From Myxococcus xanthus (GTDB taxonomy: Bacteria; Myxococcota; Myxococcia; Myxococcales; Myxococcaceae), in contig NZ_FNOH01000021.1 in the NCBI RefSeq assembly GCF_900106535.1, positions 1 through 64,000 on the forward strand: 64,000 bases of DNA. Reading direction: 5' to 3'. This document shows positions 2,172 through 52,324 of the stretch, piece by piece (within the stretch, counting starts at the first letter, position 1; each line of letters opens with the position of its first letter). The notes below the pieces were generated by a model, which searched no databases, was not told the DNA's origin, and saw only the letters and a list, made by a program, of their open reading frames with translations. A program made the translations under genes and the position numbers.

Positions 2172-6779
<4,608 letters not shown>

Positions 6780-7293
6780 GATTTCTTGAGTCCCCAAGAT
6801 GTTTTCGGGAGCCGGAGGACCCGCACGCTCGCGCGCAGCGGTTCCATTCCGGAGCACGCCGGGGCCCTGGCGCGCGAAACAGCAAGCAACGAAGCAGGCC
6901 CCCCAGCGCCTCAAGTAAAGCAGCTTTCAATGTGAAAGTCGCTAGAGCACGAAAAACTTATATGGTGCGTCAAGTTACTTTTTCTAGGTAAATTGACTAG
7001 GCAGTTATCGCTGGATTACGGCTGGGGTTACCACAGCAGGCAATGTCATACTGGTACCAGGATGAGCTACCTGGAGTGTAGTTGCCGTTCTCGGAGAGAG
7101 CGGGCGAGCACGCGGCAGGCAGGTGCATGTCGGGCATCCGGTGAATGGGATGCTGGCGTCCCCCTGACGTGAGTCCGTCCAGTCCTTCAGTGCATCGAAG
7201 CGCCGCCGAGTCTCGTCCCAGGGGCGCTCGGAGCAGCAGCTCGAGCGGTTCGAGCTCCATCAGCCGCGCGCAAGGAAGCAGGGGTAGACAAAC
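6780..7293. promoter_or_regulatory. Divergent intergenic control region between two PKS genes
   Basis: This 514-bp spacer separates the start codons of two divergent PKS genes. No coding sequence with codon bias or family similarity is seen in it. Bases 6910-7020 are clearly AT-richer than the rest of the window, which fits a promoter. A TTGACT hexamer lies at 6993-6998 on the plus strand and TTGACG on the minus strand (6973-6968), but neither has a convincing -10 box at the right distance, so transcription starts cannot be fixed. A 15-bp palindrome at 6924-6938 is listed separately. Confidence 0.6.
6924..6938. promoter_or_regulatory. Candidate operator, 6-3-6 palindrome
   Basis: CTTTCA-ATG-TGAAAG is a perfect 6-bp inverted repeat with a 3-bp spacer in the AT-rich part of the divergent PKS spacer. 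Its size and place suit a dimeric regulator. No regulator gene lies in the window, so the partner is unknown and function is inferred only from symmetry and position. Confidence 0.35.
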
Positions 7294-11817: not shown

Positions 11818-11860
11818 GGCGCGTGCCCGCACTGAAGCCCCCTTCGACCTACGAGAACCT

Positions 11861-11864
11861 GGAG
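11861..11864 (+). promoter_or_regulatory. Ribosome binding site supporting a TTG start
   Basis: GGAG lies 8 nt before the TTG at 11873. No comparable site precedes the in-frame GTG at 11777, which would also overlap the previous gene by 41 bp. This site is why the downstream PKS start is placed at 11873. Confidence 0.5.
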
Positions 11865-11872
11865 ACGACACC

Positions 11873-14800
11873 TTGGACAGCAAGCTCCCTCAGGAGTTCG
11901 ACGACGCCGACGTCGCCATCATCGGCATGGCCGGGCGCTTTCCCGGCGCTCGGGATGTGGACACGCTCTGGGCCAATCTCCGAGAGGGGGTGGAGTCCAT
12001 CCGCTTCTTCTCCAAGGAGGAGGCCCGCGCGGCCGGTGTGTCTGAGGAGCGGCTGGAGGACCCGTCCTTCGTGCGAGCCGCGGCCATCCTTCCGGAGCCG
12101 GAGTCGTTCGACGCGGCCTTCTTCGAGATGCCGCCACGCGAGGCGGAAATCACGGACCCCCAGCACCGTGTCTTCCTGGAAGCGTCCTGGGAGGCGTTCG
12201 AGCACGCTGGCTATTCACCGCGTGACTACGTCGGCGCCATCTCCGTGTTCGGCGGCGCCACGCTCAACACGTACCTGTTGATGAACCTGGCGCGGAACCC
12301 ACGCGTGCTGGAGTCCTTCGAGCCGGTGCAGGTGAACATCGGCAACGGGGGCGACTTCCTGGCCACCCGCGTCTCGTACAAGCTCAACCTGAGGGGAGCC
12401 AGCCACACCGTGCAGAGCGCGTGCTCCACCTCGCTGGTGGCGGTGCACCAGGCTTGCCAGAGCCTGCTCAATGGCGAGTGCGACATGGCGCTCGCGGGCG
12501 GTGCATCCGTCAACGTGGGGTTCTTCAACGGGTACCGGCACGCGGAGGGTGGCATGGCCTCTCCGGATGGCCACTGCCGGCCTTTCGATGCGAAGGCGCA
12601 GGGCACGCTCTTCGGCAGCGGCGTGGGCGTGGTGCTGCTGAAGAAGCTGCGAGCCGCGGTGCGGGACGGTGACACCATCCACGCCGTCATCAAGGGCTCG
12701 GCCACCAACAATGACGGTGCGCTGAAGGCGGGCTTCACCGCGCCCAGCGTGGATGGCCAGGCTCAGGTGGTGGCCGAGGCGCTCGCGGCGTCGGCACTGG
12801 ATGCGGATGACATCAGCTACGTGGAGGCCCATGGCACCGCCACGCCGCTGGGCGACCCCATTGAGGTGCAGGCGCTCACCAAGGCCTTCCGTGCCACCAC
12901 CCAGCGACGGCGTTTCTGCGCGCTGGGCTCGGTGAAGGGCAACATGGGCCACCTGGACGCGGCGGCGGGCATCACGGGCCTGATGAAGACGGTGATGGCG
13001 CTGAAGCACGGCGAGCTGCCGCCCAGTCTTCACTACGAGCGTCCCAACCCAGCCATCGACTTCGACAGCAGCCCGTTCTACGTCAACGCCACGCTCAAGC
13101 CCTGGCCCGCGGGGGACTCGCCGCGGCGCGCGGGCGTGAGTTCCTTCGGCGTGGGCGGCACCAACGCGCACGTGGTGCTGGAGGAGGCTCCCCGGTTGCC
13201 CGCGAGCGCACCCTCGCGACGTGCATGGCACCTGTTGCCTCTGTCGGCCCGGACGCCCTCGGCGTTGGAGTCGGTCACGACGCGGCTGGTGGAGTCATTG
13301 AAGAAACAAGGGGGTGTGAATCTGGCGGACGTGGCCTGGACGCTCCAGGCCGGACGCCAACGTTTCCTGCACCGTCGCTTCGTGTTGGCTCGCAGCGCGG
13401 AGGATGCGGTCGACGCGCTGTCACAGCCACAATGCCCTCGTGTATTCACCGAGGCGCAGGACGCGGTGGAGCGGTCCGTGGCGTTCCTCTTCCCGGGCCA
13501 GGGCTCGCAGCACGTGGACATGGGGCGAGCGCTTTACGAGGCAGAGCCCGTCTTCCGCGTCGAGGTGGACCGCTGCGCGGAGTTGCTGAAGCCCCACCTG
13601 GACGGACTGGACCTGAGAACGGTGCTGTACCCTCAGTCCGAGGCCGCCGAGGTCAGCGGGGCGAAGCTGGCGCAGACGGCGCTCACGCAGCCCGCGCTCT
13701 TCACGCTGGAGTACGCTACCGCGCGCCTTTGGATGTCCTGGGGCGTGATGCCGCAGTCGATGCTGGGACACAGCATCGGCGAATACGTGGCGGCGTGCCT
13801 CGCGGGTGTCTTCTCGCTGGAGCATGCGCTGAGACTGGTGGCCGCGCGTGGCCGGCTCATGCAGGGACTTCCTTCCGGTGCGATGCTGGCGGTGCCCCTG
13901 TCCGAGGACGAGGTTCAGCCGTACCTGCGCGCAGGCGGAATCGAGCTCAGTCTGGCGGCCCTCAATGGCCCCATGCAGTGCGTGCTGTCGGGGACGCACG
14001 CAGCCGTCGAAGCGGTGCGAAAGCAGCTCCAGGAGGCGGGGATTCAGTGCCAGCCGCTGGTGACGTCGCATGCCTTCCACTCGTCGATGATGGACTCCAT
14101 CCTCGACGCGTTCGCCGCGCAGGTGGCCACGGTGCCGCTGGCGGCGCCCATGCTTCCATTTGTCTCCAACGTCACCGGTACCTGGGTGACCGCCGAGCAG
14201 GCGACGAGCCCTCGTTACTGGGCCGAGCACCTGCGCGGGACGGTGCGCTTCGCGGACGGCTTGCACGCGCTCCTCACCGACGCCAGGCGCGTGTTGCTGG
14301 AGGTAGGCCCGGGCCAGGTGCTGGGGAAGCTGGCGAAGCGTCACCCCGCCTTCACTGCCTCACACGCGGTGCTGGCTTCCACGCCTCCGCCCAAGGACGC
14401 CGGGGCCACCGCCGGCATGGCGCCGCTGGCCTACGAGACGCTCGGCCGGCTGTGGCAAGCGGGCGTTCGCGTGGACTGGAAGGGGTTCCATGGCGCGGAG
14501 GTTCGCTACCGGGTGCCGCTCCCCACCTATCCCTTCGAGCGCCAGCGCTTCTGGATCGAGCCCGCCGCCGTCGAGACCGCGCCTCGGGGCACGATTGCAT
14601 CCCAGCCTGTGACGGCGGTGCCGGACGCCACGCCTCAGGCATCGCAGGCGGAACCGGGGGGCGAAGCAGTCCGTGCTCGCTCGTATCAGCCGCGCCCGCA
14701 GCTTCGCAGTGCGTATGTCATGCCGGGCACGCCACTCCAGCGGTCGCTGGTGGAGCTGTGGCAGGAGATGCTGGGCGTGGCGCCCATCGGCATCCAGGAC

Positions 14801-15067
14801 AACTTCTTCGAACTGGGCGGTGATTCGCTCATCGCCGTGCAGCTCAGTGGCCGCATCAAGAAGCAGTTGGGCTTGGACCTGCCTGCGTCGAGCCTCTACG
14901 AAGGCGTCACCGTGGAGGCCCTGGCGGCGTTGCTGAAGCCAGCGGAAGCGGAGGGGCAGGAGCGCCGTGAAGAGGCGCCAGCGGCGGATGCTTCGCTCCA
15001 GCGTCGCAAGCAGACCCTGGCGCGGCAGCGCAACCTTCGTCGCTTCGACGACGATGATGATGCGTGA
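11873..15067 (+). CDS. Type I PKS module, KS-AT-ACP (no reductive domain)
   Basis: This 1064-residue protein starts from a TTG at 11873, preferred because it has a good ribosome binding site and gives the same short acidic N-terminus (QEFDDAD) before the KS as other PKS proteins in the cluster. An in-frame GTG at 11777 would add 32 residues. The KS is intact (SACSTSL near residue 182, EAHGTAT, NMGHLDA). The AT has FPGQG (about 538), GHSIGE (about 632) and HAFHS, the malonyl-CoA signature. No KR, DH or ER is present, so a beta-keto intermediate is expected. The ACP serine is in LGGDSL near 981. The tail is Arg/Lys-rich and then ends in a run of Asp. It is probably co-transcribed with the KS-AT-KR-ACP gene just upstream. 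Confidence 0.93.
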   Translation: MDSKLPQEFDDADVAIIGMAGRFPGARDVDTLWANLREGVESIRFFSKEEARAAGVSEERLEDPSFVRAAAILPEPESFDAAFFEMPPREAEITDPQHRVFLEASWEAFEHAGYSPRDYVGAISVFGGATLNTYLLMNLARNPRVLESFEPVQVNIGNGGDFLATRVSYKLNLRGASHTVQSACSTSLVAVHQACQSLLNGECDMALAGGASVNVGFFNGYRHAEGGMASPDGHCRPFDAKAQGTLFGSGVGVVLLKKLRAAVRDGDTIHAVIKGSATNNDGALKAGFTAPSVDGQAQVVAEALAASALDADDISYVEAHGTATPLGDPIEVQALTKAFRATTQRRRFCALGSVKGNMGHLDAAAGITGLMKTVMALKHGELPPSLHYERPNPAIDFDSSPFYVNATLKPWPAGDSPRRAGVSSFGVGGTNAHVVLEEAPRLPASAPSRRAWHLLPLSARTPSALESVTTRLVESLKKQGGVNLADVAWTLQAGRQRFLHRRFVLARSAEDAVDALSQPQCPRVFTEAQDAVERSVAFLFPGQGSQHVDMGRALYEAEPVFRVEVDRCAELLKPHLDGLDLRTVLYPQSEAAEVSGAKLAQTALTQPALFTLEYATARLWMSWGVMPQSMLGHSIGEYVAACLAGVFSLEHALRLVAARGRLMQGLPSGAMLAVPLSEDEVQPYLRAGGIELSLAALNGPMQCVLSGTHAAVEAVRKQLQEAGIQCQPLVTSHAFHSSMMDSILDAFAAQVATVPLAAPMLPFVSNVTGTWVTAEQATSPRYWAEHLRGTVRFADGLHALLTDARRVLLEVGPGQVLGKLAKRHPAFTASHAVLASTPPPKDAGATAGMAPLAYETLGRLWQAGVRVDWKGFHGAEVRYRVPLPTYPFERQRFWIEPAAVETAPRGTIASQPVTAVPDATPQASQAEPGGEAVRARSYQPRPQLRSAYVMPGTPLQRSLVELWQEMLGVAPIGIQDNFFELGGDSLIAVQLSGRIKKQLGLDLPASSLYEGVTVEALAALLKPAEAEGQERREEAPAADASLQRRKQTLARQRNLRRFDDDDDA

Positions 15068-15168: not shown

Positions 15169-16407
15169 TCAGGGCGTCTTGCGGATGCGGCCATTCTGTG
15201 TGCCGCTAGCAGCCATGGCCATGGCCACGCGGGAGTAGGCAGACACGTAAGGCTGAAGCACCGTGCGTGACCAGCGCCCCGGAATCCACAGGTAGCTGTA
15301 CAGCCCGTGCCTGCGCGCGCCACGGCGCCGCTTCGTCTCGTACCCGCTGGCGCCCAGCCAGAGCTTCTTGACGCCGAGCTCATAGGCCCGGCGCAGGGGC
15401 TCGTAGAATGCGAGGTTGAAGTACAGCGGCGTCTCGGATGCCCCGGCCTCGGCGCGGCCGACCCGGTAGAACCACATCTCATCGTTCTTGTGGAGTAGCA
15501 GGGAGAAGCCGATGGGGTCGCCATTCTGGTAGGCGACCACAGCCTCGGCCTCGGGCGAGACGTGTTGGTCGAGCGCTGCCCAGAACGTGGATGGATGGCG
15601 GAGGTGCTCGTTGCCGTACTTGGAGTAGGTCACCTCGTAGAACCGCTCCAGTTGCTCCGCCATCTCTCCCATCCGGGAGACGCGCTCGAAGCGAACGCCC
15701 GTATCCCGAGCGTGAGCCATCTCCTTCTTGAGCACCCGCCGGACGTCGCTCTTGAACTGTCCCAGGTAGGCGTCGAAGTTGTCCCCCGGGACATCCATGA
15801 CGTTGTCGTCGTAGATGAAGATTTCCTGGAACGTCGCCGAGGTGAGCGCCTCTCTCAGCGTCGTGTCATCCCGTTCCACGCCGTAGAAATAGAGCGGCAG
15901 CCGTTCGCTGGTGGCGAGCTCCCGGAGCCCTTGGAGGATGAGCTCCCGCGCCTGCTTCGCGACGTCCACGGACTGCGCGGCACAGAGGATGCTGCTCCGC
16001 ATGCTGAGCGGGCTGGTGACGAAGACGCCGCCATCGAAGCCTGCTCCCGTGCGCCAGGCCACGTTGCGGTAGAGGTCCGCCGCAGCGATGGCTGCCCGGC
16101 TCCAGGCCGGCCCGTTGGCGAAGCCTTTCTTCCAACTGGTGAAGAGGAAATGCTCCAGCGAGTAGGGCGTGTAGATGGTCTTGCTGCGGGTGATGAAACA
16201 CGGGCACAGCGCGACGGGAGTGCCCTGCTGATACGCAATGGCATATCGCAGGGACAGCTCCCCCCGGGCCATGGCGGACAGGTCGACCGCGTCCAACATG
16301 CGGAACCAGCGCCGGCCGAAGAAGACGCTCGACTCGGAGGTGAGGGCATCCAGCTCCGCGTCGCTCAGGTGGCTGACGGAGTCGTGGAATTTCAGGGTAA
16401 GCGTCAT
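15169..16407 (-). CDS. FemAB-like / GNAT-fold acyltransferase
   Basis: This 412-residue protein starts at ATG 16407. The sequence resembles the GNAT-fold proteins often annotated as peptidoglycan biosynthesis/recognition proteins (FemAB-like). Recognisable features are a central YLGQFKSDVRRVLKKE segment (family pattern YLxxFxxxxRxxxrrE), a typical GDPIGFSLLL beta strand, and a C-terminal part where a gene-neutral GASGYETKRRRGARRHG motif sits before SYLW. Enzymes of this fold transfer acyl or aminoacyl groups; Fem-type members use aminoacyl-tRNA, and PacB of pacidamycin biosynthesis is a precedent in a peptide antibiotic pathway. Whether this one uses acyl-CoA or aminoacyl-tRNA cannot be told from sequence. 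It is read with the GST gene 31 bp upstream, and convergently with the PKS gene that ends 101 bp away. Confidence 0.75.
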   Translation of the reverse strand: MTLTLKFHDSVSHLSDAELDALTSESSVFFGRRWFRMLDAVDLSAMARGELSLRYAIAYQQGTPVALCPCFITRSKTIYTPYSLEHFLFTSWKKGFANGPAWSRAAIAAADLYRNVAWRTGAGFDGGVFVTSPLSMRSSILCAAQSVDVAKQARELILQGLRELATSERLPLYFYGVERDDTTLREALTSATFQEIFIYDDNVMDVPGDNFDAYLGQFKSDVRRVLKKEMAHARDTGVRFERVSRMGEMAEQLERFYEVTYSKYGNEHLRHPSTFWAALDQHVSPEAEAVVAYQNGDPIGFSLLLHKNDEMWFYRVGRAEAGASETPLYFNLAFYEPLRRAYELGVKKLWLGASGYETKRRRGARRHGLYSYLWIPGRWSRTVLQPYVSAYSRVAMAMAASGTQNGRIRKTP

Positions 16408-16438
16408 GGCCGGGGGGCTTCGTCGGGCGCGGATCCGC

Positions 16439-17125
16439 TCAGCCGTTGAGGAGCTGGACGGCGGGGTGCCGCTTGGAGCTGGCGAGGTGCCGCGCGAGGT
16501 TGGGGCGCTGCTTCATGCGCTCGAAGAACCCGAACAGCCCAGGGTAGGTGCTCTCCAGAAGATCCTGGAGGCCGTTGTCCACGAGCAGCTCCAGGAAGCC
16601 GAAGACGCTGGTGTCCGCCACCGTCACGGAGGGACCGACGAAGAAGCCATCACCGCTGCCGTTGCTCTTCAGCAGGCGCTCGAAGTGCGCGAGCCACTGC
16701 GGCAGTTCCTCGCCCAGGATGATGGGGAGCTGCTCGGAGAGCTGGTCTGGCGTGAGCGAGGTCAGGCTGCGCGCACGCGCCGTCACTTCCTCGACGCCGT
16801 CGATGATCATGTCGCAGGCGGTGGTCTCCCGCGCATCCTTCCCATAGAGGCCGCGGGTGCGCGCGACGTGACGCAAGATGGCCAGGCTCTGCACCACGCG
16901 GAAGCCGTCCGGCTCCTCCCACAGCGGCACCTTGTCGAAGGCCAGCATGCCAGCCGCCTTGATGGCCTCGAAGGCGGGTGTCTTCACCTTGGCCTGCACG
17001 TCATAGGCGCCCAGGTCGATGTCCTCGTACTCCGTTCCGGACTCGGCGAGCAGCAGACGGATCTTCTCAGCGACGCCTCGACCCGTGAAATACGACAGGC
17101 GCGGCAATGATGATTGAGCGTTCAT
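16439..17125 (-). CDS. Glutathione S-transferase family protein
   Basis: This 228-residue protein starts at ATG 17125. The N-terminal thioredoxin-like half contains LSYFTGRGVAEKIRLLLAES, with Tyr12 in the catalytic position used by alpha/mu/pi/sigma-type transferases, and VPLWEEPDGFRVVQSLAILR, which carries the Gln-Ser glutathione gamma-glutamyl contact. The C-terminal half has the N-capping-type motif VADTSVFGFLE and the expected length. It may conjugate, isomerise or protect a reactive product of the pathway, or serve self-protection; which is not evident. It is divergent from the LanB-like gene with only 71 bp between the start codons and is probably co-transcribed with the acyltransferase gene downstream. 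Confidence 0.85.
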   Translation of the reverse strand: MNAQSSLPRLSYFTGRGVAEKIRLLLAESGTEYEDIDLGAYDVQAKVKTPAFEAIKAAGMLAFDKVPLWEEPDGFRVVQSLAILRHVARTRGLYGKDARETTACDMIIDGVEEVTARARSLTSLTPDQLSEQLPIILGEELPQWLAHFERLLKSNGSGDGFFVGPSVTVADTSVFGFLELLVDNGLQDLLESTYPGLFGFFERMKQRPNLARHLASSKRHPAVQLLNG

Positions 17126-17152
17126 ACAGGGTTCGTGGTTGGAAGGGAGAGG

Positions 17153-17165
17153 CTCTATACTAGAG
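17153..17165. promoter_or_regulatory. Candidate operator in divergent GST / LanB-like promoter
   Basis: CTCTA-TAC-TAGAG is a 5-bp inverted repeat with a 3-bp spacer. It overlaps TATACT (17156-17161), a good -10-like hexamer for the rightward gene, inside the only 71 bp that separate two divergent starts. A regulator bound here would affect both genes. The repeat is short and could be chance. Confidence 0.3.
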
Positions 17166-17179
17166 TAAACGTATTATTC

Positions 17180-17187
17180 GGAAGGGG
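17180..17187 (+). promoter_or_regulatory. Ribosome binding site for a TTG start
   Basis: GGAAGGGG ends 9 nt before the TTG at 17197 and decides the start of the LanB-like gene. The next candidate, ATG 17239, has AGGA only one base away, too close to work well. Confidence 0.55.
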
Positions 17188-17196
17188 CAGACTTCC

Positions 17197-19503
17197 TTGA
17201 ACCCCGAAGCACCCGCGCTTGTCTCCCTTGCTCCAGGAATGGCCCTGTGGCCGTGGGCCGCGCTGCGTGGCGCCGGCTTTCCCGCTCAGGATGCGCTCCG
17301 TCTCGCGGCTCCGACAGCGGCCTCCGCCGCCGATACATGGCTCGCGTCTGGGGTTGAGACACCCGGTGACGCACTGCGCACCGTGTTCGACTCGGACCTG
17401 CTGGGTATCAGCGCGGCGCTGCGCTCGCTGGCGGGGGAGTCCCACCTGAGCGAGGCCCTCCTGTGGCAGAACCGCCATGCCTACAAGACGGGCGTGGAGC
17501 CGCTGGCGGCCCTTCCCGCCACCGCTCGGAACAGCAAGGCCCGGCAGCGTGAGCGGCTGGTGGCCTCCTACGTCCAGCGCTACAGCACCAAGAACGACAC
17601 CATCGGTTTCTTTGGTCCCGTGGGTTGGGCTCGGCTCACGCCGTCGAATGAAGGGCTGCGCTGGACGCCCGGACAGCGGCTCGTCTCCCGGCGCGCGGTC
17701 TATTTCGAGACATGGTGCCTGGATGCGCTCAGCGCCGCCCTGGCGCGCGACGCGTCCCTGCGTCGCTGGGCACCGCCCCGGCTGTTGCCTTACTTCCGGC
17801 TGGAGGGGCATGTGCTTCACGGCCCCATGCCGACGCCGGTGGAGCTGGGCCCGGAGCAGGCGCTGCTGCTGTCTCGGTGTGATGGTTCGGCCAGCGCCGT
17901 GAGCATCGCGCGGGAGCTCACGGCCGGTGATTCGCCCGCCTTCGCCTCGCAGGATGAAATCTTCACGGCGCTCGAACAAGCGGTGGGTTTCGGTGTCCTG
18001 CTCTGGGGCTGGGAGGTGCCGCTCGTCATCCGGCCCGAGGTGGTGCTGCGCGGTGCGTTGATGGCCATCGAGGATGCAGACGCGCGGGCCCGTGCGCTGG
18101 CGCCGCTGGAACGTCTGGAGCGCGCGCGGGCCGCTGTCGAAGCCGCGGCTGGGACGCCCACGGCCCTGGATGGCGCGGTCGCGGAGCTGGAGGCTGTGTT
18201 CCAGGAGGTGGCGGGGGCGCCGCCGACGCGCGCGGCGGGCCAGACGTATGCCTCGCGGACGCTCATCTACGAGGACTGTGAGCGGGATGGCGCGTTGGTG
18301 CTGGGCGCTCCGGTGATTGGCCGGCTCGGAGCCGTGCTGGAGCTGGTGCTGACCGGAGCGCGGTGGCTGGTGGGGGAGGTGACACGGGGTACGCGCGCGG
18401 GCCTGGATGCGCTCTTCAACCGGTTGTCCGAAGGTGGCGCACCTGTGTCGCTCACGGCGCTCCAGCTCGCCTTCGTCCAGGGACTCAAGGACCCGGCCTC
18501 TGAAGCGGAGCTGATGCCCGTGGCCAAGGCCGTCGCCGAGCATCGTCGGCGCTGGCGTGAGCTCTTTGCCCTGGATCCGGAGGTCCGCCGCCAAACGCGC
18601 ACTGTCGATTCGCTCCGGCCCCGCGTGCTCGAGGCCTTCGGCGAGGTGGGCCCGGCGTGGCGAAGCCGCTGGCATGCCTCACCGGACGTGATGATTGACG
18701 CGGCCAGCGAGGAGGCCGTTCGCGCCGGGGACTACCAGTTGGTGCTCGGCGAACTGCATTTGTGCAACAGCATCTCCTCGCTCTTCGTGGAACAGCACCC
18801 AGCGCCCGAGGAACTCTTCGCGCTCGCGGAGCGGTGTGCCACCGGGGTCGACGTGGTGCCCGTGTTCCCGAAGTCCGAGTGGAGCCAGCGGACGCTGCCG
18901 TGCCTCTTCCCGCGAGACAGCCTCTACTACCTCTCCGGGCAGGAGCCGCCGCCCCAGCCGGGCGCTCGCGCGCTCCGCGTGGGGGACATGGTGGTGGAGC
19001 GGCGTGACGGCACGCTGGAGGTCCTCGACCGCGTGAGCGGGCGCCGCTTCGACTTGATGGAGTTCATGGCCGTGTTCTTGGAGCAGCGCTGCGCCAGCAT
19101 CTTCGACCTGGCGCTGGCCGATGACTACTCGCCTCGGGTGACGGTGGATGGCGTGGTCGTCGCCCGTGAGCGCTGGAGCGCGCCTGCTTCCGAGCTGGGC
19201 TTCGCCGGACTCACGGACCCGATGACGCAATGGCTGGAGGCCCGGCGTTGGCAGCAGGGACTGGGCATTCCGCGCTTTGCGTTCTTCAAGGTGGCGACGG
19301 AGCGCAAGCCGTGCTTCGTGGACTTCGACAGCCCCTTGCTGGTGGAGATGATGGCGAAGCTGGTGCGGCGCACGGCGGAGGAGTCGCCGGCTTCACGCGT
19401 CCAGTTCTCGGAGATGCTGCCGGACCCCGAGCACCTCTGGCTCACCGATGCGGCTCAGCGCCGCTACACGAGCGAGCTGCGGCTGGTCTGCGAGATGTCT
19501 TGA
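17197..19503 (+). CDS. Lantibiotic dehydratase N-terminal (glutamylation) domain protein, LanB-like
   Basis: This 768-residue protein starts from TTG 17197. It resembles the Lant_dehydr_N family: ALWPWAALRGAGFP near the N-terminus, the signature YSTKNDTIGFFGPVGWA at residues 129-145, and the C-terminal DAAQRRYTSELRLV. Full LanB proteins have about 1000 residues and add a C-terminal elimination (SpaB_C) domain; the length here fits the glutamylation half only. In class I lanthipeptide pathways this half transfers Glu from Glu-tRNA to Ser/Thr. Small stand-alone relatives (PEARLs) use aminoacyl-tRNA to extend peptides. No precursor peptide or LanC gene is seen nearby, so a substrate made by the NRPS is more likely, for example its predicted Ser or the chain terminus. 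The ATP-grasp gene follows after 56 bp on the same strand. Confidence 0.8.
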   Translation: MNPEAPALVSLAPGMALWPWAALRGAGFPAQDALRLAAPTAASAADTWLASGVETPGDALRTVFDSDLLGISAALRSLAGESHLSEALLWQNRHAYKTGVEPLAALPATARNSKARQRERLVASYVQRYSTKNDTIGFFGPVGWARLTPSNEGLRWTPGQRLVSRRAVYFETWCLDALSAALARDASLRRWAPPRLLPYFRLEGHVLHGPMPTPVELGPEQALLLSRCDGSASAVSIARELTAGDSPAFASQDEIFTALEQAVGFGVLLWGWEVPLVIRPEVVLRGALMAIEDADARARALAPLERLERARAAVEAAAGTPTALDGAVAELEAVFQEVAGAPPTRAAGQTYASRTLIYEDCERDGALVLGAPVIGRLGAVLELVLTGARWLVGEVTRGTRAGLDALFNRLSEGGAPVSLTALQLAFVQGLKDPASEAELMPVAKAVAEHRRRWRELFALDPEVRRQTRTVDSLRPRVLEAFGEVGPAWRSRWHASPDVMIDAASEEAVRAGDYQLVLGELHLCNSISSLFVEQHPAPEELFALAERCATGVDVVPVFPKSEWSQRTLPCLFPRDSLYYLSGQEPPPQPGARALRVGDMVVERRDGTLEVLDRVSGRRFDLMEFMAVFLEQRCASIFDLALADDYSPRVTVDGVVVARERWSAPASELGFAGLTDPMTQWLEARRWQQGLGIPRFAFFKVATERKPCFVDFDSPLLVEMMAKLVRRTAEESPASRVQFSEMLPDPEHLWLTDAAQRRYTSELRLVCEMS

Positions 19504-19559
19504 GCAGCCCGAGGCCTTTCAACGGTTTCACCCTTGTTCATTGAAGGAGCCGTACGCCC

Positions 19560-20999
19560 ATGAGCGCGCCCGAGCCGATTCCCGGCGGACAATTCTCTCC
19601 AGAAGTCAAAGCGCTGCACGGTCAGCTTTCCCCTGCCGCCGCTGCGTTCCTGGAGTTCACAAAGCGCGTCCCCGAGGCCCTTTCGCGCCACAAGTTCAAG
19701 CCGCATGAGGCGTCGCCGTTCATCACCTATGAGCTGCATGCGTGGCCCACCTTCGTGGAGGGCCCGGTTGCACGACAGATGCGAGAGGTCGCCCCGGCGC
19801 TCTGCCAACTCATCAAGCGAGCCCCCCGGCGCCTGCTGGGGGCCACGGATCGCGCGGCGGCGTTCTACGGGCTTCCGCATGAGCGGGCGCACGCGGCGCT
19901 CGATGCCCTGGCGCGGACGGATGACGCCCGCGGAGCCATTGGCCGTGGTGACTTCATCCATGACGGCACGGCCTTCAAGTGCGTGGAGTTCAACCTGACC
20001 GCGGGTGTCGGGGGCTGGGAGACGGCCATCCACGTCCAACAGGTGCTGGCGCAGCCCGCGATGCAGCGCTTCGCCATGGAGCAACGGCTGCGCGTCCGTC
20101 AGCCGCGGACGCTGCGCGATTTCTTCTCCAACGTTGTCGACACCGTGCGGCGCGACGTCAACTGGGAAGGGGAGTGCAACATCGGCATCCTCTTCTCCCC
20201 GAGCACCTTGCCGGAAGCAGGCCCGGCGGAGCAGGTGAGCCGGTTCTTCACCGCTCAGCTCCAGGAACTCCTCCAGCCCGAAGGCGCGCGCGGCGAGGTT
20301 CTCCTGGCCACCTATGGCTCGGTGGAATCAGAGCCCGGCGCCCACCTCACGCTCCGGGGCAAGCGGCTGCACGCCGTTGTGGAGTACGACGCGCGAGACA
20401 GGCTGGCGATGGCGGGAGCGACCTACGTCGCGCAGGCCCAGGCCGCGTTCGATGCCCGGACGGTCAGCCTCCTCAACGGCCCGGCGCAGGATGTGCTCGA
20501 CGACAAGCGCAACCTCGCGCTGCTCTGGGAGCACGTGACGTCGCCCGCGCTGTCCGAGGCGGAACAGGAGTTGGTGCGCCGGAACGTGCCCTGGTCATGC
20601 CGGGTCGAACGGACGCACGTCGAGCGGGACGGGGCGCGGTACCTGGTTCCGGAGCTGCTGGCCTCGCAACGCGAGTCCCTGGTCCTCAAGCCGGGCCGGG
20701 ACTACGGCGGCGAGTCCGTTCTGGTGGGTGGGACGACCTCCGCCGCGGACTGGGACACGGCCGTGCGCAAGGCGCTCGACGTGGGCGGCTGGGTGGCGCA
20801 GGAGCGCGTGCACCCGACGCCCCTCCATACGCTGGGACCGGAAGGCACGGTGGTGCCCTACATCGCCGTCTGGGGGCTCTTCGTGCTCGGAGAGACCTAC
20901 GGCGGGCACTTCCTCCGCATGTGCCCCATGCGGCGGGGCACTGGCGTGGTGAACGTCGCGCAGGGCGCCATCGTGGGCGCCCTCATCGAACTGGAGTGA
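19560..20999 (+). CDS. Circularly permuted ATP-grasp type protein, copy 1
   Basis: This 479-residue protein starts at ATG 19560 with GAAGGAG just upstream. The C-terminal part has the nucleotide-binding pattern of circularly permuted ATP-grasp proteins: LVLKPGRDYGGESVLVGG near residues 378-395 followed by GGWVAQERV, with CVEFNLTAGVGGWE in the N-terminal half as a likely metal/acceptor site. Such enzymes activate a carboxylate as acyl phosphate and join it to an amine or thiol (glutathionylspermidine synthase is a known relative of the fold). A clear paralogue is encoded at 33426-34874. Position directly after the LanB-like gene suggests a joint amide-forming step on the NRPS/PKS product. The exact substrate is unknown; assignment to the superfamily rests on motif pattern rather than a search. 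Confidence 0.7.
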   Translation: MSAPEPIPGGQFSPEVKALHGQLSPAAAAFLEFTKRVPEALSRHKFKPHEASPFITYELHAWPTFVEGPVARQMREVAPALCQLIKRAPRRLLGATDRAAAFYGLPHERAHAALDALARTDDARGAIGRGDFIHDGTAFKCVEFNLTAGVGGWETAIHVQQVLAQPAMQRFAMEQRLRVRQPRTLRDFFSNVVDTVRRDVNWEGECNIGILFSPSTLPEAGPAEQVSRFFTAQLQELLQPEGARGEVLLATYGSVESEPGAHLTLRGKRLHAVVEYDARDRLAMAGATYVAQAQAAFDARTVSLLNGPAQDVLDDKRNLALLWEHVTSPALSEAEQELVRRNVPWSCRVERTHVERDGARYLVPELLASQRESLVLKPGRDYGGESVLVGGTTSAADWDTAVRKALDVGGWVAQERVHPTPLHTLGPEGTVVPYIAVWGLFVLGETYGGHFLRMCPMRRGTGVVNVAQGAIVGALIELE

Positions 21000-21014
21000 G
21001 GCCTCGGGGCCGCG

Positions 21015-21881
21015 TTACTGCTCGCGGTACTCGCGGCCCAGCTTCTGCTGCTTGCGGATGCGGCCCACCGCGCTCAGGGCAATGGAGGGGATGAGCTTCG
21101 GGCCCAGCCTGGCCAGCATCGACCAGGTCCACCACCAGTAGTTGGTGGCGATGGCGTCCTCCACCGTGTACACGCGGTGCCACCAGCCGTAGGGCAGGTA
21201 GAGAATCTCCCCGGCCTCCAGGACGAAGTCGTAGTCGGGGACAAGGCCGCCGGGGAGCTGGTCCGCCTTGCCCCCGTGGGGCGTCAGGTCGTGGGCGCTC
21301 ACGACGGACCACGGGTGGCTGAGCTTCGCCGGGCTCAGCTCCGCGTCCCGCTTGGGCGAATACAACTGCCACTGCTTGCGGCCCACCATGACGGCGTGCA
21401 GGTTGTGGGCGCGGTCCAGGTGGAGCTGGGTGAAGGTGCCGCGCGGGCCCATGAAGAAGAGCTGCTCGGTGAGCTTGCGCTGGACGGCGTAGTCGTCGAA
21501 GCGGACGTCCTGGTGCAGCTCCGGCAGGGTGCGGAACAGGTCATTGCCGATGAGGTAGCCCGGCGTTTCGCCGCCCTTCGCCTTCAGCGTGTCGACGTAC
21601 TCCTGCATGCTCATCTTCCGCACGCGGCCCACGCGCTCCACGCCGCCCGTGTCCTTGGCGTTGTATTGCAGCCACTCCACGGGGACGCTCACGTCGCGGT
21701 ACTTCGTGGCGAAGTAGTCGAAGGTCCACCGCTCGGCCGCGGGCCAGCCCTTCATGGCGTCGGTGAGGATGACGGGTTTATTGTTCGCTTCGATGCGCTC
21801 GTAGAAGGCCCGGCGGTTGTCGAGCGGCATGCGCTCAGGAACCAGGGGTTCTGCGCCCTTATGGGCGGTGGCGGTGCTCAT
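21015..21881 (-). CDS. JmjC/cupin-like Fe(II)/2-oxoglutarate oxygenase
   Basis: This 288-residue protein starts at ATG 21881 with GGGAGAG upstream. It has the iron facial triad of JmjC/cupin-8 oxygenases: His154-x-Asp156 in QLHLDRAHN and a distal His235 in YGWWHRVYT. The lead-in GRKQWQLYSP and the segment GEILYLPYGWWH are typical of the FIH-like family. Members hydroxylate amino-acid side chains in proteins or carrier-bound peptides, so beta-hydroxylation of a residue in the product is a fair guess. It is the last gene of the leftward unit that begins with the luciferase-like monooxygenase, and it converges with the first ATP-grasp gene only 15 bp away, with no room for separate terminators. 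Confidence 0.85.
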   Translation of the reverse strand: MSTATAHKGAEPLVPERMPLDNRRAFYERIEANNKPVILTDAMKGWPAAERWTFDYFATKYRDVSVPVEWLQYNAKDTGGVERVGRVRKMSMQEYVDTLKAKGGETPGYLIGNDLFRTLPELHQDVRFDDYAVQRKLTEQLFFMGPRGTFTQLHLDRAHNLHAVMVGRKQWQLYSPKRDAELSPAKLSHPWSVVSAHDLTPHGGKADQLPGGLVPDYDFVLEAGEILYLPYGWWHRVYTVEDAIATNYWWWTWSMLARLGPKLIPSIALSAVGRIRKQQKLGREYREQ

Positions 21882-21903
21882 GGCAGCTCTCCCGGGTGGT
21901 GCG

Positions 21904-22227
21904 TCAGGCCGCGCTCTCGCTCTGGCCCTGAGCCTTCTGCAGGCGCTCGAAGTTGTTGTCGATGCCGTGGCGCACGTCCGCCAGCATGTGGATTTCGAAC
22001 TCCTGGAACGCGAAGGACGGCCAGGCGCGCAGCAGCGTCAGCAGCGACTCATGCGAGTCGGCGTTGAGGATACAGAGGCCCATCTTCGGGAGGACGTAGT
22101 AGGCACAGTCGAAGGTGCCGTCCTGGAGGCGAGCGCCCACCCAGTCACGGACAGCGCGGTTGAGGGCGATGGGGTCCTGGGGCTGGGGGCCCGAAGTGCG
22201 ATCCTTGACGTAGACGAGGTACTTCAT
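21904..22227 (-). CDS. Small ferredoxin-like alpha/beta-barrel protein (muconolactone isomerase/YCII-like)
   Basis: This protein has 107 residues. The ATG at 22227 was chosen because AGGAG lies 8 nt before it and the protein then begins MKYLVYVKDRT, the usual first beta strand of this fold; a longer in-frame reading would run back into the thioesterase gene. The pattern strand, helix (RAVRDWVGARLQDG), strand (YYVLPKMGLCILNADS), helix (ESLLTLLRAWP), strand (EFEIHMLAD) matches dimeric alpha/beta-barrel proteins. Relatives include isomerases, cyclases, decarboxylases and proteins of unknown role next to secondary-metabolite genes. It could be a cyclase or isomerase for the polyketide part. Function is not assigned. 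Confidence 0.75.
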   Translation of the reverse strand: MKYLVYVKDRTSGPQPQDPIALNRAVRDWVGARLQDGTFDCAYYVLPKMGLCILNADSHESLLTLLRAWPSFAFQEFEIHMLADVRHGIDNNFERLQKAQGQSESAA

Positions 22228-22253
22228 CGGGAAGGCTCCTTTGAAAAGTGGGG

Positions 22254-23006
22254 TCAGCGAGTCGATGCGGGCCGCAGCCTGGTGAGGCTCCGGCGGATGT
22301 TCTGCAGCAGGCCGCGCGGCGTCTGTCGCAGGAAGAAGTGATCCCCCAGGAACGTCTGGGTGGCGAACGGACCGGAGGTGAGCTGGCGCCACGCCTCCGT
22401 CGCGTCATCGGGCACGTAGTCGTCGAAGCCGCGGAAGGCGGAGAGCGGGCACGCCAGGATGGGGCCCGGCTTCCACGCGTAGCCCTCGCACACGGCGGTG
22501 TCCGCCAGCATGGTGGCGCGCATCAAAGTCAGCAGCTCTTCCGCCATCTCGCCCGACACGGCGCGTGACTCACCCAGGCGCCGGGCTTCGGACGCGTCGA
22601 TGTCATGGGTGGCCGTGGCCGGTGTGTGGGCCTGGAGCGTGTGCGGCGCCCGGTAGCTGGCGACGAAGAGGTGCAGCGGCGCCGGCAGCCCGCGCTCGCG
22701 CAGCGCCCGCGTCAGCTCGTATGCGAGCAGTGCGCCCATGCTGTGTCCGAAGAGGGCGTAGGGCTTGTCCGTGTGCTTGGCCAGCACGTCCACCAGGGGC
22801 GCGATGACGTCCGGCAGCGCGCGCAGGGGTGGCTCGCGCAGGCGGTTCTCCCGACCGGGGAGCTGCACCGGGCACACCTCGATGTCTTGTCCCAGCTCCG
22901 CCTGCCAGGTGCGGAACAGGGAGGCGCTGCCACCCGCGTGAGGCAGACAGAACAGCCGCACCCAGGACGCCGGTGCGGGGACGTGGAAGGCCAACCAATC
23001 CGTCAT
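22254..23006 (-). CDS. Type II thioesterase
   Basis: This 250-residue alpha/beta hydrolase resembles the editing thioesterases of PKS/NRPS systems. It shows the N-terminal FCLPHAGGSAS, the PLPG-type LPGRENR motif, the nucleophile Ser89 in GHSMG, Asp195 or Asp196 in FRGFDDYV and His223 in GDHFFL. It probably removes stalled or wrongly primed acyl groups from carrier domains; no integrated TE domain is seen in the window, so a role in release cannot be excluded. Its ATG overlaps the stop of the glycosyltransferase gene (ATGA), which implies translational coupling. Confidence 0.93.
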   Translation of the reverse strand: MTDWLAFHVPAPASWVRLFCLPHAGGSASLFRTWQAELGQDIEVCPVQLPGRENRLREPPLRALPDVIAPLVDVLAKHTDKPYALFGHSMGALLAYELTRALRERGLPAPLHLFVASYRAPHTLQAHTPATATHDIDASEARRLGESRAVSGEMAEELLTLMRATMLADTAVCEGYAWKPGPILACPLSAFRGFDDYVPDDATEAWRQLTSGPFATQTFLGDHFFLRQTPRGLLQNIRRSLTRLRPASTR

Positions 23007-24280
23007 GACCGCACCTCGCGTCCCTGTCCGCCAACGAGCTTCTGGTACACAGCGAGGTTGGCAGCCACCATGCGCGGCAGGCTGAACAGCTCCACCACGC
23101 GTTGCTGGCCGGCGAGCCCCATGCGCCGCGCCCGCTCGCGGTCCTCCAGCAGGTTGAGCTGCGCGGCAGCGAGCGACTCGACGTCCACTTCGCGCGGACC
23201 TCCCGGTGCGCCGGGGAGCACGGGGACCAGCAGGCCCGTCTTCTCGTGGTCGACGATTTCCGACGGGCCTCCGGAGCGCGTTGCCACCAGCGGTAGACCG
23301 GAGGCCATGGCCTCGATGGCCGTGTAGCCAAAGGGCTCGTAGAGCGAAGGCACCAGCGCCAGATCCGCGATTCGATGGAGCAGCCCGAGCTGCTGGCGTG
23401 GCAGTTTGCCCAGCAGCTTGATGCGGTGGCGCAGGTGCGCGTAGCGCTGGGTCAGCGTCTGCACCATCTGCGTGGACTCTCGCGAGTCGGTGCCACCGGC
23501 CAGGAGGAAGCGCACGTTGGGGCGCCGTTCGAGCACGCGCTCGGCGGCGGCGAAGATGGCGCTGATGCCCTTCATGGGATGGAGCCGACCCGTGTAGAGG
23601 ACGACCGGGTCATCCGGCGTGGCCACTGTGGCGCGCAGCCGGGCGTAGTCCTCCGGCGCGTGCGAGGGCTGGAGGAAGGGGCCCGCGTCCATGCCGCAGT
23701 GGATGGTGTGCAGCAGCGACGCCGGCATCCCATAGGTCTCCCGGATGAGCTCGCTCATGGAGTCGCTCACCGAGATGACGTTCGTCGACCCGTCGTAGAA
23801 GCTGCGCTCCTCCTCGAGAATCTCCGGGTCGGGCGTCTGTCCCCACCATCGCTCGGCGGGCTCGGAGATGTAGTGGCTGGTCCCCAGCACCGGCACACCG
23901 GTCTCATGGGCCAGCGCTCGCGCGGCGCGGTGGGTGTGCCACTGGTGGAAATGGATGAGGTCTGGCTTCTCCTCGTGGATGAGCTCGCGGCCTCGGTGAA
24001 TCAGGTCGTCGTTGAAGACGCGGATGCCGCCCACCAGGGAGAGCTTTCCCGCCTGGGAGAGGCTGCCGCGGCTGGGCGGCATCATGTGCACGGTGAGGTT
24101 GGGCTCGCGGAGCACGGCGGGCTCGCCGGGCGTGTACGCCAGGACGGTGACCTTGCACCCGCCGCGCGCCAGCCCGCGGGCCAGCTCGTAGACATAGGTG
24201 CCCACACCGCCGGCCACGTTCGGCGTGTACTCCATGGCCAGGAGGAGCGCCTTCAGGGGTGGGGAGATAGGAGGTGCCAT
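23003..24280 (-). CDS. GT4-family glycosyltransferase
   Basis: This 425-residue protein starts at ATG 24280, 34 bp after the stop of the PKS gene upstream; a longer in-frame reading would overlap that gene. It is a GT-B retaining glycosyltransferase: NVAGGVGTYVYELARGL near the N-terminus (acceptor side), YTGRLHPMKG (start of the donor domain) and EPFGYTAIEAMASGLP with the EX7E donor-binding motif, followed by SGGPSEIV. It has the usual length. The likely role is addition of a sugar to the PKS/NRPS product, since it sits within the biosynthetic operon and overlaps the thioesterase gene. Neither sugar nor acceptor can be read from sequence, and no sugar biosynthesis genes are in the window. Confidence 0.9.
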   Translation of the reverse strand: MAPPISPPLKALLLAMEYTPNVAGGVGTYVYELARGLARGGCKVTVLAYTPGEPAVLREPNLTVHMMPPSRGSLSQAGKLSLVGGIRVFNDDLIHRGRELIHEEKPDLIHFHQWHTHRAARALAHETGVPVLGTSHYISEPAERWWGQTPDPEILEEERSFYDGSTNVISVSDSMSELIRETYGMPASLLHTIHCGMDAGPFLQPSHAPEDYARLRATVATPDDPVVLYTGRLHPMKGISAIFAAAERVLERRPNVRFLLAGGTDSRESTQMVQTLTQRYAHLRHRIKLLGKLPRQQLGLLHRIADLALVPSLYEPFGYTAIEAMASGLPLVATRSGGPSEIVDHEKTGLLVPVLPGAPGGPREVDVESLAAAQLNLLEDRERARRMGLAGQQRVVELFSLPRMVAANLAVYQKLVGGQGREVRS

Positions 24281-24314
24281 TGGGCTGTCTCTCAAAAAGG
24301 GTGTGGACGCGCGG

Positions 24315-27300
24315 CTAACGGCTGGCCGCGCCCTCCTTGGCGGTGAGCTCGGCCAGGATTCGCAGCAGGGCCTCCACCTCCGGGTCATCATGGCCGGGGC
24401 TCTTGCGCTGCTCGGCTACCAGGGCCGCCAGTCGAGCCACCGTCGGCGCCTCGAACAGCGATTGCAACGGCACCGTGAAGCCGAAGGTGTCCCGCAGCCG
24501 TCCCACCACCGTGGTGGCCAGCAGCGAGTGTCCACCGAGCGCGAAGAAGTCGTCGTGGACGCCCACCGGCCGCACGCCCAACACGTCCTCCCAGATGCGC
24601 GCCACCACCTGCTGGTCCTCGGTGTCGGGAGCCACGTAGGCCACGGCCAATGCGGGGCGGGAGTAGCCCGCGGCGGGGGCCTCACCGGGCTCCTCCGTTT
24701 CGGGGACGCGCTCCGCGGACGGCGCGGCGGCCAGGGCGCGGTGCCCGTCGGGGGAGACCCAGTAGCGCTTGCGCTCGAAGGGGTAGGTGGGCAGCCCGAC
24801 GCGTTGGCGCCGTGCCTCGCCGTTGAAGGCTTCCCAGTCCACATCCACGCCGGACATCCAGAGCTGTCCCAGCGCGCCGAGCAGCACGGTCGTATCCGCC
24901 TGTCGCGTGTCCGGATGACGGAGCGAGGTCACCGTGGTGGGCGCCTGCCGGAGCGCGCCAGGCTGTGACGCGAAGGTGGTCAGCGTGCGGCCGGGGCCGA
25001 CCTCCAGGAGCACCTGCGCGGGTTGTAGCTGCGCGAGCCCCGCGGCGAAGCGGACTGGCTGACGCAGGTGGCGGGCCCAGTAGGCCGGGTCCTTCGCCTC
25101 GGCGGCCGTCACCCACGTGCCGGTGACGTTGGAGAGGAAGGGAATCTGCGGCGCGGACAGCTTCATCCGGCGCAGGCGCTCGGTGAAGGGCGCGACGATG
25201 GGGTCCATCATCGCCGAGTGGAACGCGTGCGAGGTGTGCAGGCGACGTGACTGGACGCCACGTGCGTCCAGCCGGGCCTTCAGCGCGTCCACGGCGTCGT
25301 CGGGGCCGGCGACCACCGTCATCGACGGCGCGTTCACCGCGGCCACGGACAGCCGCGCATCCAGCGACGACACCAGCTCCGCTTCCGACAGCGCGACGGA
25401 GAGCATTGCGCCCGGCGGCAGGTCCTGCATCAACTGGCCCCGTGCGGCCACCAGGGCTAGCGCGTCCGGCAAGGTGAAGACGCCCGCGAGGCACGCGGCC
25501 ACGTACTCACCGATACTGTGGCCCACCATGGCCTCGGGCCGCACGCCCCAGGACATCCACAGCCGCGCGAGCGCGTACTCGATGATGAAGAGGGCCGGCT
25601 GGGCCAACCGCGTCTGCTGCAACTGCCGCTGGGCTTCCTCGGCGCGGTCCGCGGCGGGGAAGAGGACCTCGCGCAGGTCCACCTTGAGGTGCGGGATGAG
25701 CCGGGTGGCGCAGTCGTCCACGTCCGCGCGGAACCCACGCTCGTTCTCGTACAAACCCTGCGCCATGCCCGCGTACTGCGCGCCCTGGCCAGGGAACATG
25801 AACACGGTGGGGCGGCTGGTGCGCTCCTCGGTGGCGGAGAGCTGCCGGCTGATGTCGCCCAGCGCCGTGAGCGTGTCCTCACGTCCCTGACAAACGATGG
25901 CGCGGCGGTGCGGGTGGCGCCGCCTGCCCACTTGGAGCGTGTACGCCACGTCCGCGGGCTCCAGGCCCTTGTTCGCGCGGAGGTGCTCCTCCAGCCGGGA
26001 GGCCTGCGCGGCGAGCGCCGTGGGTGTGCGCGCCGACAGGATCAGGAGTTGGTGCGAGCGCGTGGACGAAACCGGAGCGCGGGAGGGCGGCTCCTCCAGG
26101 ATGACATGGGCGTTGGTGCCGCCCATGCCGAAGCTGCTCACGCCGGCGCGCCGAGGCTCGCGGGCGGGTGCCTTCCACTCGCGCAGCTTCGTGTTGACGT
26201 AGAAGGGGCTCGCGTCCCAGGGGATGTTGGGGTTCGGCGTCTCGAAGTTGAGGCTGGGTGGCAGCTTGCGGTGCTTCAGCGCCAGCGCCGTCTTGATGAG
26301 GCCCGCCACGCCCGCCGCCGCGTCCAGGTGGCCCAGGTTGGGCTTGATGGAGCCCAGGGCGCAGGTGCGCGGTCCGGCGGCCTCGTCGCCGAAGGCGCGG
26401 ATGAGGGCCTGCACTTCGATGGGGTCTCCCAGCGCGGTGCCGGTGCCGTGCGCCTCCACGTAGCCGATGCTCCCGGCCGATACGCCCGCGCTGCCCAGGG
26501 CCTCGGAGATGACGGCGGCCTGGCCCTCGACGCCCGGCGCGGTGTAGCCCACACGCGCGGCGCCGTCGTTGTTCACCGCGGAGCCCTTGATGACCGCGTA
26601 GATGGGGCTGCCATCCGCCAGCGCATCTTCCAGGCGCCGCAGCGCCACCACGCCCGCGCCGCTGCCGAAGACGATGCCCTTGGCCTGCGCGTCGAAGGGG
26701 CGGCAGTGCCCGTCCGGCGACAGGATGCCGCCATCCACGTAGCGGTAGCCGCCCTGAATCTGGAGGTTGATGGACACGCCGCCCGCGAGCGCGAGGTCAC
26801 ACTCCTGGTTGAGCAGGCTCTGACAGGCGACGTGGACCGCGACCAGCGACGTGGAGCACGCGCTCTCGATGTTGAAGCTGGGGCCGCGCAGGTCCAGCTT
26901 GTAGGCGGCCCGCGTGGTGAGGAAGCTGCCCGCGTTGCCCAGGTTGAGCTGGAGCGGGTCCGCCGTGCGCATCAGCTCCGCGTTCCCCATGAGGTTGAGC
27001 AGCAGGTAGGTGCTCAGGGCCTGTCCGCCGAAGACACCCACCAACAGCTCGGGAGTCGGCGCGCCATGGCCCGCGTCCTCCAATGCCTCCAGCGCGCACT
27101 CCAGGAAGAGGCGTTGCTGCGGGTCCATGACCTCCGCTTCGCGCGGCGTGTAGCCGAAGAAGGCCGCGTCGAAGCCCGCAACGTCGTCCAGCCGTGAGGC
27201 CACCTTCACGAAGTGCGGATCCTTCAGCACCTCGGTGGGCAGGCCCGCCTTGAGGACTGCCTCGTCCGAAAGCGGCTCAATGGACTCCACGCCGTCGCAG

Positions 27301-27395
27301 AGGTTGCGCCACAGATCCTCCAGGCTGCGCGCGCCTGGGAAGCGCCCGGCCATGCCGGTGATTGCGATCTCCATCCCCGTGTTGCTGTCCGACAC
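24315..27395 (-). CDS. Type I PKS module, KS-AT-ACP
   Basis: This 1026-residue single-module PKS appears to start from GTG 27395, preceded by GAGGGGG; the ATG seven codons later is an alternative. The KS is complete (SACSTSL near residue 181, EAHGTGT, NLGHLDA). The AT has FPGQG (about 533), GHSIGE (about 622) and HAFHS, which predicts malonyl-CoA. No KR, DH or ER is present, so the beta-keto group stays. The ACP serine is in LGGHSL near 953, and the protein ends soon after with an ordinary acidic/Lys tail rather than the Arg-rich tail of its neighbour. It starts 18 bp after the stop of the upstream PKS, so the two modules are translated together. Confidence 0.94.
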   Translation of the reverse strand: MSDSNTGMEIAITGMAGRFPGARSLEDLWRNLCDGVESIEPLSDEAVLKAGLPTEVLKDPHFVKVASRLDDVAGFDAAFFGYTPREAEVMDPQQRLFLECALEALEDAGHGAPTPELLVGVFGGQALSTYLLLNLMGNAELMRTADPLQLNLGNAGSFLTTRAAYKLDLRGPSFNIESACSTSLVAVHVACQSLLNQECDLALAGGVSINLQIQGGYRYVDGGILSPDGHCRPFDAQAKGIVFGSGAGVVALRRLEDALADGSPIYAVIKGSAVNNDGAARVGYTAPGVEGQAAVISEALGSAGVSAGSIGYVEAHGTGTALGDPIEVQALIRAFGDEAAGPRTCALGSIKPNLGHLDAAAGVAGLIKTALALKHRKLPPSLNFETPNPNIPWDASPFYVNTKLREWKAPAREPRRAGVSSFGMGGTNAHVILEEPPSRAPVSSTRSHQLLILSARTPTALAAQASRLEEHLRANKGLEPADVAYTLQVGRRRHPHRRAIVCQGREDTLTALGDISRQLSATEERTSRPTVFMFPGQGAQYAGMAQGLYENERGFRADVDDCATRLIPHLKVDLREVLFPAADRAEEAQRQLQQTRLAQPALFIIEYALARLWMSWGVRPEAMVGHSIGEYVAACLAGVFTLPDALALVAARGQLMQDLPPGAMLSVALSEAELVSSLDARLSVAAVNAPSMTVVAGPDDAVDALKARLDARGVQSRRLHTSHAFHSAMMDPIVAPFTERLRRMKLSAPQIPFLSNVTGTWVTAAEAKDPAYWARHLRQPVRFAAGLAQLQPAQVLLEVGPGRTLTTFASQPGALRQAPTTVTSLRHPDTRQADTTVLLGALGQLWMSGVDVDWEAFNGEARRQRVGLPTYPFERKRYWVSPDGHRALAAAPSAERVPETEEPGEAPAAGYSRPALAVAYVAPDTEDQQVVARIWEDVLGVRPVGVHDDFFALGGHSLLATTVVGRLRDTFGFTVPLQSLFEAPTVARLAALVAEQRKSPGHDDPEVEALLRILAELTAKEGAASR

Positions 27396-27413
27396 GCTGT
27401 CCCCCTCTTGCGC

Positions 27414-35175: not shown

Positions 35176-52324
<17,149 letters not shown>

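Follow-up and report, generated by a model that had tools for sequence, protein, structure and literature searches.

The stretch analysed here (the window) comprises 64,000 nucleotides of Myxococcus xanthus, positions 1–64,000 of contig NZ_FNOH01000021.1 (assembly GCF_900106535.1), and all coordinates refer to it. A block of genes at 15169–34874 encodes a FemAB-like protein, a LanB-like protein and two ATP-grasp proteins, along with two polyketide synthase (PKS) modules with intact ketosynthase (KS) cysteines and a thioesterase (TE); it contains no adenylation (A) domain (Table 1). An initial annotation had described the FemAB-like, LanB and ATP-grasp genes, plus a second ATP-grasp copy, as a ligation cassette inside a PKS/nonribosomal peptide synthetase (NRPS) cluster. 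All four genes were confirmed at their positions, and profile searches placed their products in the families named (PF04339/PF13480 and PF04738, and the ATP-grasps by profile–profile comparison). That account had left out a glutathione S-transferase (GST) gene on the minus strand between the FemAB-like and LanB genes. The FemAB-like and GST genes are oriented opposite to the genes for the LanB-like protein and ATP-grasp 1.

The LanB-like protein matched the Lant_dehydr_N family PF04738 from profile position 5 to 647 of 649, as its sole family and with no C-terminal domain. An N-domain standing alone, with the Asp, Glu and Arg of the ATP site retained, is also found in the peptide/acyl aminoacyl-tRNA ligases (PEARLs) TglB, AmmB and BhaB (PMC11117183, PMC11962472). 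PEARLs use ATP to form an acyl-phosphate, which is then coupled to aminoacyl-tRNA; the same has been proposed for SnaE, an enzyme of an assembly-line cluster (PMC11212132). Residues D497, E519, H521 and R657 were invariant in 110 of 110 homologues, F696 was kept in 109 of the 110, and E760 and R762 in each of the 108 long enough to include these positions. Matched to TglB by motif and spacing, D497, E519 and H521 were in register with Asp542, Glu564 and a conserved His (the Asp–Glu gap is 22 residues in both proteins), and E760/R762 corresponded to Glu801/Arg803. R657 and F696 aligned with the adenine-binding Arg743 and Phe783 of TbtB, with an inferred numbering offset of 3. At the PEARL-specific positions, the split LanB TbtB carries Tyr and Leu instead (PMC11117183). 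As a control, full-length LanBs of Myxococcus were compared; they retain the Glu but not the PEARL Arg, which is replaced by Val in L208, the clearest example, and no Asp was seen within the region aligned. On these residues we mark the protein as PEARL-type, a predicted ATP- and aminoacyl-tRNA-dependent amide ligase and not a glutamylating dehydratase. The earlier label of a LanB glutamylation-domain protein thus holds for the domain and not for the activity.

Membership in PF04738 would also suit a true (split) lantibiotic dehydratase, which would glutamylate hydroxyl groups and yield alkenes in a polyketide or peptide after elimination. The PEARL-specific Asp and Arg argue against such an enzyme, and a split dehydratase is unlikely because the host genome has no match to the elimination domain Lant_dehydr_C (PF14028). 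Nor did the block show a lanthipeptide precursor gene, although no systematic precursor search was run. We regard a dehydratase as highly improbable.

Both ATP-grasp proteins are, judged by profiles and motifs, divergent circularly permuted (CP) ATP-grasps. In the Pfam search, ATP-grasp 1 gave a sub-threshold match to CP_ATPgrasp_2 (PF14403; 14.8 bits against a gathering cut-off of 32), and ATP-grasp 2 gave no match to this family. Profile alignment with hhalign linked ATP-grasp 1 to the PF14403-matched proteins L218 and L217 (29.5 bits and above the cut-off, respectively) with Prob 94.8, E 5.3e-8 and 297 columns. The link to a related CP-ATP-grasp group from other genomes was stronger (Prob 99.2, E 1.3e-19), and one member of that group, from locus L200, matches PF14403 at 3.1e-6. 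The retained motifs are E143-x-N145, K316, K377 and the GG loop G383-G384. This motif order (E-x-N, K, GG) and the collinear profile alignment resemble type 2, glutathionylspermidine-synthase-like CP-ATP-grasps (PF14403, PDB 3n6x), but the block proteins score below the Pfam gathering threshold and the match to 3n6x is itself weak (E 1.1). Homology between the PEARL and the ATP-grasps was not seen by direct profile comparison.

The FemAB-like protein is a divergent member of PF04339 (1.3e-19, 71 bits, cut-off 27), a family with two far stronger members in the same host (457 and 430 bits, against 65 for the block protein in that comparison). It also matched the GNAT family PF13480 (9.2e-8), and neither a FemX structure nor anything else useful was returned by a profile search against solved structures. 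FemABX aminoacyl-tRNA transferases (PF02388; FemX, VlmA, PacB, DhpH-C; PMC12945691) share the GNAT superfamily with it; unlike them, the block protein falls in PF04339, and it had no PF02388 match at E ≤ 0.1. Since PF02388 is the tRNA-using family, tRNA use by the FemAB-like protein would be only an analogy, and any role in the pathway is a guess. The use of aminoacyl-tRNA, initially suggested for both proteins, is therefore retained for the LanB-like protein, which has the PEARL residues, and not for its FemAB-like neighbour.

Table 1. Features of the conserved block and its neighbours in the window (KS, ketosynthase; AT, acyltransferase; KR, ketoreductase; ACP, acyl carrier protein; C, condensation domain; A, adenylation domain).
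Feature	Position	Strand	Remarks
FemAB-like (PF04339) / GNAT protein, 412 aa, divergent member	15169–16407	-	opens conserved block; PF04339, PF13480; dN/dS 0.21
Glutathione S-transferase family protein, 228 aa	16439–17125	-	PF14497 6.3e-17, PF02798 3.7e-9; between FemAB-like and LanB genes
Stand-alone Lant_dehydr_N protein, PEARL type (predicted peptide/acyl aminoacyl-tRNA ligase), 768 aa	17197–19503	+	PF04738 2.1e-28
Circularly permuted ATP-grasp ligase 1 (predicted), 479 aa	19560–20999	+	56 bp downstream of PEARL gene; profile comparison and motifs
Cupin_8 / JmjC-like oxygenase, 288 aa	21015–21881	-	PF13621 3.2e-41
Small conserved ORF, 107 aa (MKYLVYVKDRTSGP...)	21904–22227	-	DNA conserved in 6 genomes, in cupin–TE gap
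Stand-alone thioesterase, 250 aa	22254–23006	-	PF00975 4.3e-42
GT4-family glycosyltransferase	23003–24391	-	PF00534 3.9e-32, PF13439 3.7e-26
PKS module KS-AT-ACP	24315–27395	-	active-site Cys present (SACSTS); HAFH in AT
PKS module KS-AT-KR-ACP	27414–32036	-	active-site Cys present (TGCSTS)
Luciferase-like monooxygenase (LLM), MsnO8 family	32165–33196	-	PF00296 1.3e-39; TIGR03558 394 bits, cut-off 167
Circularly permuted ATP-grasp ligase 2 (predicted), 482 aa	33426–34874	-	closes conserved block (homology ends near 34842); 51% identical to ligase 1
Left neighbour outside block: NRPS C-A, cut by contig start	from 1	-	
Left neighbour outside block: PKS	2172–6914	-	
Left neighbour outside block: PKS	7294–11817	+	
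Left neighbour outside block: PKS	11777–15067	+	
Right neighbour outside block: giant NRPS/PKS, adenylate-forming (A- or FAAL-like) start	35107–64000	+	runs on past window

The block is a unit with its own two PKS modules. Genes for the LanB-like protein and both ATP-grasps were found in 10 of 27 genomes of the genus Myxococcus, ATP-grasp 2 being present in all 10 block-bearing genomes. Eleven block genes compared with M. qinghaiensis gave dN/dS values of 0.19–0.35, which indicates purifying selection. The distribution and this selection together argue that the gene set did not come about by chance. The open reading frame (ORF) of 107 amino acids was conserved across the block-bearing species examined, and its product matched no Pfam family at E ≤ 1. 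The PKS pairs at 7294–15067 and 24315–32036, which lie on either side of the PEARL gene, both have the composition KS-AT-KR-ACP plus KS-AT-ACP and share approximately 70% DNA identity.

The block and the megasynthase genes around it occur independently of each other. In M. qinghaiensis, 15169–34842 is kept at 80–84% DNA identity and the flanking megasynthases are absent. Neither M. eversor nor M. llanfairpwllgwyngyll... had an orthologous match to the flanking megasynthases beside the block; one flank there showed only approximately 67% similarity of ordinary NRPS/PKS domains. Three species thus carry the block without the giant NRPS beside it. Conversely, eight species without the block had the first part of the giant NRPS (from 35107) at 81–83% identity, and in the block-less species read, its homology stops near 35074–35189. 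A PKS related to the left neighbour was located at other sites in further species (approximately 80% identity). Block and giant cluster are therefore separable, and the "inside a PKS/NRPS cluster" of the initial annotation amounts to the adjacency of separate clusters.

This bears on whether the ligases extend or cap the product of the giant flanking NRPS/PKS, all parts forming one large cluster where they lie together. In its favour, the block is flanked on both sides by megasynthase groups, in the window as in several relatives, most PEARL homologues accompany NRPS genes, and SnaE works in an NRPS/PKS pathway. The sna (threopeptin) cluster of Stackebrandtia nassauensis, an NRPS/PKS cluster, likewise encodes a LanB-annotated, PEARL-like protein; there an amide is formed outside the NRPS and without a carrier peptide (PMC11212132), and amide formation of this kind is predicted for the block. 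The sna system differs in that a ureido-forming C domain leaves a carboxylate exposed and in that the paper makes no mention of an ATP-grasp (PMC11212132), whereas the Myxococcus block has no NRPS and two CP-ATP-grasps. None of the C motifs identified across the window contig or the extended left and right stretches of M. sp. CA023 was the ureido-type motif EHHxxHDG, so the chain-reversal logic of SnaE is not indicated there; among 70 homologous PEARL loci the motif occurred at one. Given that the clusters are separable and that the block has its own small PKS, capping or extension of the large product, as first proposed, is not favoured, and we consider it unlikely.

The wider distribution of the PEARL was surveyed in 85,000 species genomes, which yielded 408 LanB relatives and 76 loci that were kept. 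NRPS/PKS content was counted domain by domain, because a PKS protein taken whole matches other carrier domains as well. The neighbourhood survey proposed at the outset showed NRPS/PKS domains at 60 of the 70 loci outside the block (C or A domains at 58, KS domains at 10), which agrees with the published figure of approximately 2000 NRPS/PKS clusters that encode a LanB-annotated protein (PMC11212132). With our own profiles, no CP-ATP-grasp was detected at any of these 70 loci, a set that includes a few metagenome-assembled genomes of Myxococcota. PEARL and CP-ATP-grasp genes were found together at 16 loci, six with the Myxococcus block and ten in six other genera of Myxococcota; the ten had no NRPS/PKS domains within the stretches examined. 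The idea that the ligase genes belong together was thus borne out, both by the conserved unit and by recurrence of PEARL plus CP-ATP-grasps in other genera.

Gene order differed among these loci. Five species of one genus (g5) shared the order aminotransferase, ATP-grasp A, ATP-grasp B, a divergent 320-aa gene and PEARL, followed by an M28 peptidase gene and, where examined, accompanied by ABC-transporter genes. An aminotransferase was also present at the PEARL loci of genomes G028, G111 and G147, A-type ATP-grasps lay on either side of the PEARL in G108, and the locus in G057 was cut by the contig. In the PEARL tree, the Myxococcus protein and two from Acidobacteria formed one group (support 0.987); the G108 group (0.913) and that of the aminotransferase cassettes (0.993) were separate from it. 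From these separate clades, the pairing of PEARL and CP-ATP-grasp looks to have arisen more than once.

Further PEARL-type genes were noted in the course of the survey. Cassettes of the g5 type (L198 in G160:C5, L062, L197, L199, L202), with an aminotransferase of class I/II and no PKS/NRPS, come from one genus of Myxococcota. In the genome of the window, tandem PF04738-type proteins of approximately 800 and 1070 aa are encoded at G000:C8:138491-144212; most Myxococcus genomes have a similar pair, and a member from another species (L068) keeps the PEARL-like Asp and Glu-Leu-Arg. M. vastator (L063; G015:C458, a 5.7 kb contig) has a second PEARL-type LanB adjoining an AHH nuclease and an Imm11 immunity gene. 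In many loci of Streptomyces, Amycolatopsis and relatives (L106–L144), a pair of PEARL-type LanB genes is separated by a few kb, and a short protein that matches carrier domains is often encoded between them.

These observations led us to propose that the block is a self-contained secondary-metabolite cluster, in which a short polyketide acid is made and amides are then added by the PEARL and the two CP-ATP-grasps; we give this an approximate probability of 50%. The ligase set most likely serves amide formation after the assembly line. We infer the chemistry, the order of steps, the part played by amino acids and the block polyketide as substrate as follows. The KS-AT-KR-ACP module, then the KS-AT-ACP module and the thioesterase would make the short acid. 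Using ATP, the PEARL would phosphorylate the carboxylate of this acid and join it to the amino group of an aminoacyl-tRNA; one or two more amide bonds would be formed through acyl-phosphates by the two CP-ATP-grasps. As the core block has no adenylation domain, amino acids would enter via the PEARL and the ATP-grasps. Tailoring of the product would fall to the glycosyltransferase, luciferase-like monooxygenase, cupin oxygenase and GST.

Several points weigh against this proposal. No recognisable loading module was found in the block's two PKS modules. AlphaFold modelled ATP-grasp 1 and the FemAB-like protein with too little confidence for a structure search (predicted local distance difference test scores of 42 and 51), so that the folds assigned to the ATP-grasp and FemAB-like proteins rest on sequence profiles. 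Where the three subclusters sit together, the block might still act jointly with the giant NRPS. In related genomes, A-type CP-ATP-grasps are also found on their own, with no PEARL, and the linkage of the two is hence frequent and not exclusive. The latter point, together with the restriction of the FemAB-like gene to the Myxococcus block among 90 PEARL loci scanned, would fit three ligase genes that do unrelated jobs (for instance, cell envelope for the FemAB-like protein, self-protection for the ATP-grasps) and co-occur through cluster history. Against this, a PEARL is combined with one or two CP-ATP-grasps repeatedly, across different gene orders and different clades of the PEARL tree, and we find unrelated functions improbable.

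The unit could also modify a protein or carrier instead of a small acid. The substrate of the PEARL would then be a carrier, either a ribosomal peptide or a protein (the 107-aa product or a PKS ACP, for example), and the ATP-grasps would load or release the modified amino acid. TglB, AmmB and BhaB indeed act on ribosomal scaffold peptides, and a peptidase gene after the PEARL, as in genus g5, would be expected if something is cleaved. No scaffold peptide was identified in the block: in the gaps inspected, the small conserved ORF was the one candidate seen and no short precursor was noticed. The 107-aa protein belongs to no recognised family and has nothing that points to a carrier role, and others found no carrier peptide in assembly-line clusters with a PEARL, SnaE being an example. 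A carrier-based role is, in our view, unlikely, and we retain the self-contained polyketide-amide cluster as the preferred reading.

A LanB-type ligase beside PKS/NRPS genes is not new, since SnaE, which is annotated as LanB and adds Thr in an NRPS/PKS cluster, has been published together with the finding that approximately 2000 NRPS/PKS clusters encode a LanB-annotated protein (Yu & van der Donk 2024, PMC11212132). The initial statement that no pathway with this set had been described therefore needs narrowing to the full set: in the open-access papers searched, which are only part of the literature, no paper on it or on a PEARL with CP-ATP-grasps was found. Searches of the accessible part of the literature with guessed M. 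xanthus locus tags likewise returned nothing on this region. The pairing of PEARL and CP-ATP-grasp appears undescribed.

Of the approximately 2000 assembly-line PEARL cases, SnaE is the only one explained in the literature examined. The block, which lacks an NRPS and combines its own two PKS modules with two additional ATP-driven ligases, offers a small system for asking what PEARLs do in such clusters. More tentatively, Myxococcota may have joined PEARL and CP-ATP-grasp pairs at least three times into compact amide-forming lines free of adenylation domains, which would take their amino acids from aminoacyl-tRNA and free pools, the Myxococcus line being the one wired to a two-module PKS. The cassettes of aminotransferase, two ATP-grasps and PEARL suggest a type of pathway that standard NRPS/PKS searches might not flag as a unit.

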